Source: Streptomyces flavochromogenes
GTDB taxonomy: Bacteria; Actinomycetota; Actinomycetes; Streptomycetales; Streptomycetaceae
Direction: 5' to 3'
DNA length: 64,000 bases
Assembly (NCBI RefSeq): GCF_000717595.1
Contig: NZ_JNZO01000039.1
Span: 1 to 64,000 of the forward strand
Both the position numbers and the translations under genes were made by a program. The notes under the pieces were generated by a model. That model saw only the letters and a program-made list of their open reading frames with translations. It had not been told where the DNA came from and made no database searches. Positions 60,409 to 64,000 of the stretch are shown piece after piece (within the stretch, counting starts at the first letter, position 1; every line of letters starts with the position of its first letter).

Positions 60409-60843
60409 ATGAAACATCCCCCGGACCGGATCGACGTGGCCGAGGGGCTGCGCCACATCCTTCAGGAGCTGTCCGCCATCGAGCGGTCGGTCGAGGGTGA
60501 ACGCGCGGGCCTGCCGGATGCCCGTACGGACGGAGAGGGGTCCTGGGACGGGCCCGGGTTCACCGTCGAGACCGTCAGCGACAACAGCATGCACACCGTG
60601 GTGGACATCAGGGCGCTGCGCGGTCCCGGCCGGCCCTTGCCCGACCGTGCCGGGCCCGACGAGGAAGAGGCCGCCGCGCTGCGCGCAACCGTGCGCGCGC
60701 TGCTCGACCTGGCGGACATCGGATCCGGGCGCGCGTGTACCACGGTGGTCCTCACCGAGCGGGGGCCACGGGTGGTCAGTTGCCGGCTGGGCGGCGGCGC
60801 GACCGTGTTCGCGCGCGAGCCGGGGCCGGGAGGAGTGGGCTGA
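60409..60843 (+). CDS. Unrecognised protein
   Basis: 144 aa, not recognised. A strong ribosome site (GCAGGAGGAG, 8 nt spacing) supports the ATG at 60409; the extension to 60262 has none. The N-terminus is helical (DVAEGLRHILQELSAIERSVEGE), the middle contains GFTVETVSDNSMHTVVDIRALRG and the C-terminus is a strand-rich CTTVVLTERGPRVVSCRLGGGATVF. No signal peptide or membrane segment. It lies between tdk and the repeat-peptide gene. Confidence 0.65.
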   Translation: MKHPPDRIDVAEGLRHILQELSAIERSVEGERAGLPDARTDGEGSWDGPGFTVETVSDNSMHTVVDIRALRGPGRPLPDRAGPDEEEAAALRATVRALLDLADIGSGRACTTVVLTERGPRVVSCRLGGGATVFAREPGPGGVG

Positions 60844-60845
60844 GC

Positions 60846-60897
60846 GGGGCCGCCGGGGCCGCCGGGGCCGCCGGGGTCGCCGGGGTCGCCGGGGTCG
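60846..60897. repeat. 9-bp tandem repeat after the 60409 gene
   Basis: GGGGCCGCC is repeated at 60846, 60855 and 60864, continued as GGGGTCGCC at 60873 and 60882 and a partial copy at 60891. It follows the stop codon directly and is non-coding by current calls. On the opposite strand it reads as Gly-Pro-Asp-rich codons. Confidence 0.93.
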
Positions 60898-60951
60898 TAC
60901 GGGGCGGGCCGAGCGGGATTCGGTAGGACGGTTGTACCCGGGCTGACCTGG

Positions 60952-61016
60952 CGTTCCCGGGTGCGTTCCCGTGCCCTGCCGGAAGGCGGTATCGGCTCGG
61001 GAACGGTCCGGGAACG
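60952..61016. promoter_or_regulatory. Paired heptamer repeats, candidate SARP binding region
   Basis: Two direct repeats CGTTCCCG (60952, 60964) face two direct repeats CGGGAACG (60998, 61009). The right-hand pair has the heptamer CGGGAAC repeated with a 4-bp spacer, i.e. an 11-bp period, ending about 9 bp before a weak -10-like GAGAGT (61025-61030) and about 65 bp before the 61081 start. This geometry fits SARP (AfsR-type) operators; the convergent AfsR-like gene is the obvious candidate binder. Confidence 0.55.
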
Positions 61017-61080
61017 GGTCGCCGGAGAGTACGTGGTGTCGGGAAGCAGAACCGAAGAAACCACGTAAAGGGGATAGGCC

Positions 61081-61386
61081 ATGGGACGCAAGTCGACTGG
61101 ACTCGCCGGGATCGTCGTCGCCGCCGCTCTCGCCCTCGGGCTCGGGATCACGGTGGAGACGGGTCACGGGCAGAGCCGGCCGGCCGGCGTGCAGGTCCAG
61201 GCCGACGACCAGGGCCCGACGGTGATCGGCAAGGGTGGCGTGGTTCGGGTCGGCGCGACCGATGACCAGGGTCCGACCGTCATCGGGTCCGGGGTCGTCC
61301 AGGCGGGTGCCACCGACGACCAGGGCCCGACGGTGATCGGCAAGGGCGCGCCCGCCGCCGGCGGTCAGAGCGTCTTCGCCGCCTGA
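61081..61386 (+). CDS. Small exported protein with three DDQGPTVIG repeats
   Basis: 101 aa, complete, with a strong ribosome site AAAGGGGATAGG before the ATG. Residues 1-41 form a likely Sec signal peptide (MGRKSTGLAGIVVAAALALGLG...), followed by three copies of DDQGPTVIG at 42-50, 61-69 and 79-87, joined by Gly/Val/Ala-rich linkers, and a short tail. At the DNA level the units are 57 and 54 bp apart. It does not match a family I recognise. The small size, export signal and tandem repeats suggest a secreted or surface-displayed peptide, a structural element or a proprotein cut at the repeats. It is convergent with an AfsR-like regulator. Confidence 0.7.
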   Translation: MGRKSTGLAGIVVAAALALGLGITVETGHGQSRPAGVQVQADDQGPTVIGKGGVVRVGATDDQGPTVIGSGVVQAGATDDQGPTVIGKGAPAAGGQSVFAA

Positions 61387-61445: not shown

Positions 61446-64000
61446 TCAGCTGCGACGGCGTTCCGCCGGGACGCCCATCTCGCCGAACAGGTCCTCCGCC
61501 GAGCGCTCGTTGCGCGCCGCCTCCTCCGAGAGGCCGAGGGCGGCCTGGGCGCGGGCCATGCCGGACAGGGCGTAGGCCATCTCGATGCGGAAGTCGAGGG
61601 AGTGCGCCACCTCGTGGGCGCTCTCGTGCAGCCCGAGCGCCGCCACGTACTCCTTGCGCTTGTAGAGATAGCGGCCGACGGTGTTCTCGACCTTGGCCCG
61701 GCGCAGTGGAGAAACGTTTGGCCCGATGGTTTCCATGGCTCGGTCCGCGTACCGGACGGCCTGATCGTCCCTGCCGAGACGCTGGGCGACCTCCGCGAGC
61801 AGCGCGAGGGCCAGGGCCACCTGCCCCGGGTCGCTGTTCTCGGTGCACAGCGCACGCGCCCGCGCGAGGGACAAGTCGGCGGCCTCGTTGTCGCCGAGGC
61901 AGGCGTGGGCGAACGCCAGGTCCGTGAAGGCCACCAACTTGTTCTCGTGCTGGCCCAGTTCGTCGCAGAGCGCGATCGCCCGACGGGCCGCCGACGCCGC
62001 CTCCTCGTGCCGCCCCCACTGCTCGTACAACGTGCTGAGCAGGGTGAGGCTCTCGGCCTCCGCCCGGCTGGCGCCCAGCTCCCGCTGGTGCGCGATCGAC
62101 TTCTCCAGATGGGACAGCGCCTGCGGGAACCGGCCGAGCAGACTGTTCAGCTGGCCGAGGGCGCCCTCGCTGTGGGCCAAGGTCTGGACGTCCCCCAGCC
62201 GTTCGGCGACGTCCCGGCCCTCCGTGGCCACCTCGATGCCCTCGGCGAAACGGCCCAGCTTCCAGCACGCCACACCCAGATTGGACAGGCTCACACCCAG
62301 CAGCGGCAGTTCGCCGAGCCGGCGCGCGGCCGCCACCGCCAGCAGCCCCATCGAGCGGAACTCCTCCAACTGGCCCCGCGCACTGAGCTGGAAGGCCAGA
62401 TTGCGGCTCAGGAACACGGTGTGGCGGTCGTGTCCGAGCCGGTCCGCCAGGCCCACCGTCCCGAGCAGGGACCCCTGCTCCCGCGCGAACCACTGCTCGG
62501 CCTGCTCGCTCTCCGCGAACCGCGGCAGCCGCATGAGCCACGCGTCCGCGTCCTCCACCTCCGCCACCTCGGTGGGGATGCGGCGCCGGCCCGGGAACAT
62601 CACCTGGCAGGCCGACTCCGTCGCCGCCAGGTAGTAGTCGAGCAGCCGGCGCGTCGACGCGGAGTCGTCCTCCTCCGTCGCCGTCGACCTGAGGCTCTGC
62701 GCGAAACTGCGCACCAGGTCGTGGAAGGTGTACAGGCCGATCTCCGGCTGCTGCAACAGATGGACGTCCAGGAGGAGTTCCAGGATGTCCTCGGCGTCGG
62801 CCGGATCGGTCTCCAGGAGAGCGGCCGCCGCGTACACGTCGAGGTCGCCGCCGGGATGCAGTGCCAGGCTGCGGAACGCGGTCCGGCAGTCCTGCTCCAG
62901 GGCCTGGTACGACAGGCGCAGGGTGGCGGCGACGCTGCGCTGCCCCGAACTCAGCTCGTCCAGACGGCGCGTCTCGTCGCGCAGCCGGTCGGCCAGGTAA
63001 CGTAACGTCCAGCGCGGCCTGTTGCGCAGCCGGGCGGTCGCGATCCGCAGCGCCAGCGGAAGATGACCGCACAGCCGCGCCAGTTCGGCCGCCGCCTCCG
63101 GCTCCGCCGCGTACCGCCGTTCGCCCAGGGTCTCCGCCATCAGTGCCGCGCACTCCGCCGGCGACATCACGTCGATCGAGATCCACTGTGCCGAGTCGAG
63201 GTCCACGAGCCGGGCCCGGCTGGTGACGAGGACCAGGCAGCCCGGGGTGGTCGGCAGCAGCGGTCGCACGCCGTCGGCGTCGGCGGCGTTGTCGAGGAGC
63301 AGCAGCAGACGCTTCCCGGTGACGGTCGACCGCCACAGCGCCGTACGACCCGCGAGGTCCTCCGGAATGCGCGAGCCCGGCACACCCAGGGCGCGTAACA
63401 GGCTGTCGAGCGCTCCGCCGGCGGTCACCGGCTGCTCGCCGGGCGTGTAGCCGCGCAGGTCGATGTAGAGCTGGCCGTCGGGGAACTCGGAGGCCAGCGA
63501 GTGCGCCGCGTGCACGGCCAGAGAGGTCTTGCCGCTGCCGCCCATGCCGTCCAGGGACACGATCCGGGAATGCCGCGCGCAGTCCCGGCCCGCCGAGTCG
63601 AGCAGCTCCCGCAGTTCGTCACCGCGGCCGGTGAAGTCCGCCAGGTCGTACGGCAGGGTGCACGGTGCCTCGGTGGGCGCCGCCGCCGTCAAGACCACCG
63701 GGGCCGCGACGGGCGGGGGGACGGGGGCGGCCAGCTCCGGGCTGTCGCGCAGGATCCCCTCGTACACCTTGGTCAGCCGGGGGCCCGGGTCGACGCCCAG
63801 CTCCTCCACCAGGAGCTCGCGGACCCGGCTGTACTCCTCAAGGGCCTCCGCCTGCCGGCCCGAGCGGTACAGGGCGAGCATCAACTGGGCGCGCAGCGAC
63901 TCGTGCAGGGGATGCGCCTGCACCAGATCCCGCAGATCGACGACGAGTTCCGCCGTCTCGCCGAGACCGAGGCGGAGATCGAAGAGCTGCTCCGCGGCGG
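61446..64000 (-). CDS. AfsR-like SARP regulator (BTAD / NB-ARC / TPR), 5' end outside window
   Basis: At least 851 codons in frame; the 5' part with the DNA-binding domain lies beyond 64000. The visible chain begins inside the BTAD segment (LFDLRLGLGETAELVVDLRDLVQAHPLHESLRAQLMLALYRSGRQAEALEEYSRVRELL), then an NB-ARC/STAND ATPase with P-loop DGMGGSGKTSLAVHAAH and Walker B RLLLLLDNAADAD, and a long TPR-type helical C-terminus (for example AVAAARRLGELPLLGVSLSNLGVACWKLGRF). This is the AfsR layout: a SARP activator gated by nucleotide and repeat domains, as in control of antibiotic production. It is convergent with the small repeat-protein gene and separated by 59 bp. Confidence 0.93.
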   Translation of the reverse strand, partial: AAEQLFDLRLGLGETAELVVDLRDLVQAHPLHESLRAQLMLALYRSGRQAEALEEYSRVRELLVEELGVDPGPRLTKVYEGILRDSPELAAPVPPPVAAPVVLTAAAPTEAPCTLPYDLADFTGRGDELRELLDSAGRDCARHSRIVSLDGMGGSGKTSLAVHAAHSLASEFPDGQLYIDLRGYTPGEQPVTAGGALDSLLRALGVPGSRIPEDLAGRTALWRSTVTGKRLLLLLDNAADADGVRPLLPTTPGCLVLVTSRARLVDLDSAQWISIDVMSPAECAALMAETLGERRYAAEPEAAAELARLCGHLPLALRIATARLRNRPRWTLRYLADRLRDETRRLDELSSGQRSVAATLRLSYQALEQDCRTAFRSLALHPGGDLDVYAAAALLETDPADAEDILELLLDVHLLQQPEIGLYTFHDLVRSFAQSLRSTATEEDDSASTRRLLDYYLAATESACQVMFPGRRRIPTEVAEVEDADAWLMRLPRFAESEQAEQWFAREQGSLLGTVGLADRLGHDRHTVFLSRNLAFQLSARGQLEEFRSMGLLAVAAARRLGELPLLGVSLSNLGVACWKLGRFAEGIEVATEGRDVAERLGDVQTLAHSEGALGQLNSLLGRFPQALSHLEKSIAHQRELGASRAEAESLTLLSTLYEQWGRHEEAASAARRAIALCDELGQHENKLVAFTDLAFAHACLGDNEAADLSLARARALCTENSDPGQVALALALLAEVAQRLGRDDQAVRYADRAMETIGPNVSPLRRAKVENTVGRYLYKRKEYVAALGLHESAHEVAHSLDFRIEMAYALSGMARAQAALGLSEEAARNERSAEDLFGEMGVPAERRRS

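Follow-up and report, generated by a model that had tools for sequence, protein, structure and literature searches.

What does a small, exported-looking repeat protein do beside a large regulator of the SARP type? The question is raised by a 64,000-nucleotide stretch of Streptomyces flavochromogenes DNA (contig NZ_JNZO01000039.1, positions 1 to 64,000; hereafter the window), in which a gene for a 101-residue protein with three DDQGPTVIG units (61081..61386, forward strand) converges with a SARP gene on the reverse strand (61446..64000, on to 64493). The reading that we favour, and that the sequence comparisons below make somewhat better than an even chance, is that the small gene encodes an exported peptide pheromone, which would be sensed by the TPR domain of the SARP in a positive feedback loop. 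Its logic would resemble that of the RRNPPA systems, with an unrelated regulator as the receptor.

According to the list of open reading frames (ORFs) and an alignment to 12 homologues, the small gene encodes a peptide precursor made of a leader (residues 1 to about 41) and the three repeat units. The N-terminus, MGRKSTGLAGIVVAAALALGLG, belongs to a Sec-like, exported-looking leader, and DDQGPTVIG begins at residues 42, 61, and 79 (61204..61230, 61261..61287, and 61315..61341, all forward strand). The first unit is preceded by V-Q-A, a signal-peptidase-like -3/-1 pattern. Over six core codons, adjacent units of the window show 6 silent and 0 amino-acid differences. A Pfam scan of the protein gave no match, and a protein search retrieved 12 homologues at E<=1 that carry 1 to 5 units; the named ones are annotated 'hypothetical protein', and further named homologues hypothetical, uncharacterized, or secreted protein. 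A sequence-only reading of this stretch had described an ORF at this place with three repeats, an exported product, and a repeat family that it did not recognise, of which the ORF and its repeats are confirmed and the exported-looking product and the lack of a recognised family are supported. The same reading called the convergent neighbour an AfsR-like SARP, which is confirmed as well. The gene spans 61446 to 64493, which puts its start 493 bp outside the window. In the 1015-residue product, the proposed receptor and activator, Pfam finds Trans_reg_C, BTAD, NB-ARC, and TPR_12 above the cut-off, the order of DNA-binding/BTAD, NB-ARC, and TPR parts that marks the large AfsR-type architecture of about 1000 residues, and AfsR chains are its best sequence matches among solved structures. 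However, another protein of the same genome, L041, matches AfsR (8k60) far better (1362 bits versus 460 for the window's SARP; a second large SARP, L042, reaches 632), and the window's SARP is therefore not the AfsR orthologue. Its C-terminal TPR region (residues 640-1015; 61449..62576, reverse strand) is the proposed peptide-binding part. In a structural model, residues 615-1008 align with Rap, NprR, and AimR, and likewise with other TPR proteins.

The two genes form a recurrent pair. In the first five further genomes, the small gene was convergent with a SARP of 62-94% identity in four, even where the outer genes differ; in the fifth, the contig came to an end. A SARP scan of the named genomes yielded 77 loci, 54 of them with a SARP of at least 44% identity; with two loci set aside for having no or little downstream flank (L081 and L125), 52 were assessable. 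By inspection, a peptide gene is present in 47 of these 52, convergent in 46, and was not found in the other five. The 47 break down into 44 curated convergent pairs and three others: L054, which the contig end cuts off, L092, with the peptide gene 1053 bp away, and L095, with it upstream in the same direction. A mechanical small-ORF rule scored 42 of 50 loci versus 18 of 114 control genes; it is known to have made one false call and to have missed two cases. For distant SARPs (<44.5% identity) this rule gave no clear enrichment (5/23), and a reciprocal profile search found peptides beside five SARP relatives at 38-43% identity. Among 63 plasmid-borne SARP records, the eight best (43-86% identity) comprise five with convergent peptides (tails DDQGPT x2, EGKGPTTIGQ, DHQGPAVISH, SGEGPA x2, and TEIGPSFVRP), one with a co-directional peptide (tail LEDNHGNG), and two with none. 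A profile of 15 peptides was also compared with 150 Streptomyces genomes and gave 20 matches at E<=1e-3, 13 of which lie beside a convergent SARP relative (38-100% identity within the compared part); five of these 13 loci were known earlier (G000, the genome of the window, and G004, G020, G075, and G111), and eight had not been fetched before. The remaining matches are five judged to be other proteins, which the profile matched in part only, one cut by a contig end, and L184, so that a convergent SARP stands beside 13 of the 14 credible matches with intact flanks. The regulator/small-protein pair proposed in the sequence-only reading is supported, with a peptide gene in 47 of 52 loci, and homologues with the same neighbour, for which that reading had asked, recur across loci, on plasmids, and in the profile search.

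Some loci at the margin of this family deserve mention in their own right. L184 encodes a family peptide with the tail AEDKGPATIEP; its neighbour is an XRE-type gene, and the stretch fetched around it gave no SARP match. Distant SARPs (33-35% identity) at L126, L127, and L108 face convergent small exported-looking ORFs that end in GNTQWD or DNTVWE, perhaps another tail class. In the genome of the window, the second large SARP (L042 2709-6104, contig G000:C2) is followed by a 63-residue exported-looking ORF ending in VVADGPIVAEPHEEWDSRG, with a TATCCAG 11-bp repeat 5' of it by eye; this is possibly another pair, and no relatives of the small ORF were found in 100 other genomes.

The promoter of the small gene suggests that the SARP controls its partner. 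A SARP-type box, CGGGAACG-GTC-CGGGAACG (60998..61016, forward strand), forms an 11-bp direct repeat with 8-mers at 60998-61005 and 61009-61016, and a weak -10-like hexamer, GAGAGT (61025..61030, forward strand), follows 8 bp past the second 8-mer. This arrangement (60998-61030) fits the rule for large-SARP targets given in a section of PMC10936776, namely 11-bp direct repeats of which the 3' one lies 8 bp from the -10, and makes the box a putative binding site; the repeats ahead of a weak -10 had already been pointed out from the sequence alone, and the spacing is 8 bp. A third, weaker repeat, CGGTATCG (60987..60994, forward strand), lies 11 bp further upstream and recurs in several relatives. 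Close relatives also share a GTTCCC pair of opposite orientation, with a 12-bp period (60953..60970, reverse strand; 60953-60958 and 60965-60970). In a promoter set of 46 peptide genes (the 44 curated convergent pairs, the window, and L016), the best 11-bp repeat scores at least 13/16 in 42, versus 2.1% of 920 shuffles. Exact 7-mer repeats with an 11-bp period occur in 19 of the 46 (mean of 1.7 in shuffles), although three of these are the GTTCCC element in opposite orientation; a 12-bp period is enriched too (14 versus 1.5). These counts are not independent, because the rows are related, and the best matches vary in position. Pairs from Kitasatospora and Streptacidiphilus, whose tails are different, retain the box (L083, L084, and L086).

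On the genome scale, a perfect CGGGAACGNNCCGGGAACG occurs once in the 8.88-Mb draft genome of the window and once in G004, at the corresponding promoter. The looser pattern CGGGAACNNNNCGGGAAC has two matches in the former, the second of which (G000:C34) lies, by eye, just 3' of a tRNA-like sequence and was taken as chance. Near-matches with at most two mismatches number 33 versus 6 for a reversed control in the genome of the window and 25 versus 7 in G004, the perfect site included. Three near-match sites have identical bases in both genomes; four were inspected, and no regulon is claimed from them. A two-mismatch box at L160 3136, 5' of a sensor-kinase-like gene (named by eye), has the same bases in G004 and may be either a second target or a matter of simple orthology. 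Separately, a 9-bp tandem repeat of the CGCCGGGGC type lies at 60851-60899, between the accessory gene discussed below and the promoter.

The precursors themselves combine a patterned leader with a clade-specific tail. Leaders commonly follow MRxKLxGLxGIxAAAxLALGLG and are on average more alike than the tails (normalised score 0.30 versus 0.21); the curated proteins start with a charged and then a hydrophobic stretch, one set having been picked by such a rule and the other by motif only. Tails start acidic and often contain GP, as in DDQGPT, DDRGPT, DDKGPT, EDKGPT, ENQGPT, DDHGPS, DNQKPT, DSKGPT, DNKGPAVVQP, DNQSPASIKL, SDVGPHTPKP, DEASPHTVQP, SDEGPN(TPQP), GDQGPG, DDRPVSNTIGPF, SDNPAGNVIGSH, and others. 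Just before the first core, 26 of the 28 thinned pairs show a small or aliphatic residue, then any residue, then Ala, again a signal-peptidase-like pattern. Thinned single-copy forms continue for 7-14 residues past x-x-Ala, most often 10; elsewhere among the relatives, a lone tail can be about 20-24 residues long. Copy number ranges from one, in many relatives, to seven by motif count, and the variant-motif array of L096 is longer; the triple repeat was accordingly rejected as a defining trait. Across arrays, the core codons of adjacent copies differ by 112 silent and 10 amino-acid changes (nine in L099, one in L076), whereas the spacers show about 62 and 61; the core ratio of amino-acid to silent differences (pN/pS) is biased low, because the motif itself was used to find the copies. 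Although free to vary, the third core residue stays the same throughout nearly every array and changes from clade to clade. The preferable reading of the repeat is a signal peptide in several copies, with the TPR domain of the SARP as its proposed partner.

The strongest indirect sign of such a partnership is covariation. Alignment A2 of the SARPs has 57 rows (53 loci of the SARP scan plus L006, L016, L041, and L042); nine of the 67 sequences offered were left out for short or interrupted matches, and L106, of which only the N-terminus is available, never entered. Forty of the 46 pairs of the promoter set are represented in it, of which thinning at 90% SARP identity left 28. In these, tail similarity follows TPR similarity once the DNA-binding domain is removed (r 0.34, p 0.001), whereas the reverse comparison gives -0.03 (p 0.6). 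The contrast is kept with variability-matched columns (0.24 for the TPR versus 0.05 for the DNA-binding domain), and the leader of the same proteins has no such preference (0.15 versus 0.17). The variability-matched run used automatic cores, some of them wrong (L065, L097, L098, L101, and L104), but hand-chosen cores agree (TPR 0.36, p 0.0015, versus -0.15). The NB-ARC domain is more weakly linked to the tail given the DNA-binding domain (0.19, p 0.036) and not linked given the TPR (-0.11). Taken together, this sequence covariation suggests that the TPR domain meets the tail.

From the pairing, the conserved box, the patterned leader with its clade-specific tail, the silent-site pattern, the tail/TPR covariation, and the receptor-like fold model, all read from sequence, we infer a circuit of expression, export, processing, import, binding, and regulatory outcome. 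The SARP would bind the 11-bp repeats and activate the small gene. The product would be exported via the Sec route and probably cut after V/I/L-x-A, which frees the tail; in multi-copy forms, extra cuts would release several copies of one short peptide, here about DDQGPTVIG. The peptide would then re-enter the cell and bind the TPR superhelix of the convergent SARP, relieving the autoinhibition exerted by the NB-ARC and TPR domains. The freed SARP would activate the peptide gene further and probably also neighbouring biosynthetic genes. Past the SARP, the contig carries XRE-NB-ARC, carbamoyltransferase, MbtH, glutamate mutase E-chain, class II tRNA-synthetase-like, and glutamate-synthase-like genes, which together resemble a biosynthetic cluster and may be a target. 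The stretch from the carbamoyltransferase to the glutamate-synthase-like gene (L006 10157-16262, on G000:C39 past the window) is unusual.

The accessory gene upstream of the peptide gene points to the alternative that survives best, although we regard it as unlikely. Here the small protein would be the precursor of a ribosomally synthesised and post-translationally modified peptide (RiPP), namely the substrate of an ATP-grasp-like neighbour of the graspetide or peptide-ligase kind, and the tails would be the modified cores of a SARP-switched cluster. Of the 57 fetched stretches, 41 do contain an ATP-grasp-like gene, which lies on the same side of the SARP as the peptide in 39 and upstream of the SARP in two (L065 and L095), with relatives that include L017, L075, L100, and L168; the tails combine acidic residues with Thr, Lys, or Ser, and graspetides commonly carry more than one core. 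However, no match was found in the other 16 stretches, some of which have little flank. The protein has about 300-400 residues in some loci, whereas others, the window's clade among them, retain only a C-terminal part of 118-144 residues; in the window this is a 144-residue remnant on the same strand as the peptide gene (60409..60843, forward strand). Among three such proteins scanned with Pfam, L017 gave a sub-cut-off match (PF02786, E 0.013), and L093 and the 144-residue form gave none. The gene apparently encodes a decaying or repurposed enzyme. Moreover, the leader is Sec-like and not of the cytosolic enzyme-recognition type, and a RiPP precursor does not predict the tail/TPR covariation.

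Less probable again is an effector like AfsS, i.e., a SARP-switched downstream regulator that acts on other transcription and is not a ligand of the SARP. In its favour, afsS is a direct target of AfsR, encoded next to it, and its product in turn acts on pathway regulators (PMC10972967, in the part concerned with this pair); the AfsS of the genome studied here likewise has three short repeats. But AfsS lacks a leader, whereas the curated proteins of the present family begin with charged and then hydrophobic residues, and tails that vary between clades and are uniform within an array fit a matched ligand better than a common effector. Homology to AfsS was rejected on similar grounds, the genome's own AfsS being leaderless and different.

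There is also a small chance that the peptide is a signal with another receptor, such as the XRE-NB-ARC neighbour or a membrane kinase, and that the SARP only drives expression. A divergent XRE-NB-ARC gene flanks the SARP in the window and 15 close loci, and at L184 an XRE-type gene, with no SARP found, adjoins the peptide gene; yet the XRE-NB-ARC gene was not found in most other loci and was rejected as an essential part, Pfam shows no TPR in it, and the tail covaries with the TPR domain of the SARP. Equally improbable is a SARP-controlled exported toxin or surface peptide (bacteriocin-like or wall-associated) whose copy number raises the dose: leader, multiple copies, fast-changing tail, patchy distribution (7/150 genomes for the window's peptide, 20/150 for the profile), and plasmid-borne copies would suit it, but the tail covaries with the TPR domain of the regulator, the tails, being short, acidic, and Cys-free with Pro, are unlike known bacteriocins, and no immunity gene was recognised, although no search was aimed at one.

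Extended to streptomycetes and their relatives, the pheromone reading would describe a diversifying family of linear peptide pheromones with NLR-like STAND receptors, in which peptide binding to the TPRs switches the NB-ARC ATPase and frees the SARP for strain-specific, self-amplifying control of antibiotic clusters; we give this wider proposal an even chance. Actinobacterial signals are typically small molecules according to a section of PMC10075063, and quorum sensing in Streptomyces is mainly attributed there and in parts of PMC4748050 to gamma-butyrolactones and other small molecules; in PMC4748050, cyclic or modified peptides are named for actinobacteria as well. In open PMC papers, a search that largely did not cover subscription papers and preprints, no description of the peptide/SARP pair was among the matches listed, and the tail core strings returned one rice paper among theirs. 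The stimulus of the large-SARP TPR sensor is left open in the relevant passages of the AfsR papers (PMC10936776, PMC10972967), and a dedicated exported peptide beside many SARPs would, if true, supply it. Small exported peptides of this kind would then be a place to look for the ligands of other AfsR-type SARPs, silent gene clusters might be switched cheaply with short synthetic peptides, and plant and animal NLRs would gain a peptide-sensing STAND protein from bacteria for comparison.

Among known systems, those of the RRNPPA group of Bacillota (Rap-Phr, NprR-NprX, PlcR-PapR, Rgg-SHP, and AimR-AimP) are similar in that the gene of a predicted exported propeptide adjoins that of an intracellular TPR receptor, and in the build of the propeptide from a leader and a short variable C-terminal peptide. 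Tandem copies of the pheromone are also found in Phr propeptides (PMC11343458), and the modelled C-terminal TPR domain of the SARP has the size of these receptors and aligns with Rap, NprR, and AimR. In contrast, the DNA-binding part is that of a SARP (OmpR-like plus BTAD) instead of an XRE helix-turn-helix or the N-terminal domain of Rap or AimR, an NB-ARC ATPase precedes the TPRs, and the host is an actinomycete (Actinomycetota). The pair would thus work like the RRNPPA systems without belonging to them. The STAND activator MalT senses maltotriose and differs from the present SARP in its LuxR-type DNA-binding domain. AfsR-afsS of S. coelicolor shares a large NB-ARC/TPR SARP that switches on the small gene beside it from 11-bp direct repeats (PMC10936776, in part), and the AfsR box CGTT(T/C)ATCG, as given in a section of PMC10972967, resembles the third repeat CGGTATCG. 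The parallel with AfsS drawn in the sequence-only reading is nevertheless not close, for the AfsR orthologue of this genome is L041, which is followed (L041 5340-5800, G000:C5) by an AfsS with three NMHAT-like repeats; AfsS is leaderless and its repeats are different, whereas the window's protein has a leader, its SARP is not the AfsR orthologue, and the pair is convergent. The nearest precedent that we have met is NosP, the SARP of the nosiheptide cluster, whose ligands are nosiheptide and an intermediate (PMC10972967, in the passage on this regulator). There, as is proposed here, products made from a peptide gene close by modulate the DNA binding of a SARP, but these ligands, as that passage presents them, are not a dedicated exported linear signal peptide such as the one proposed here.
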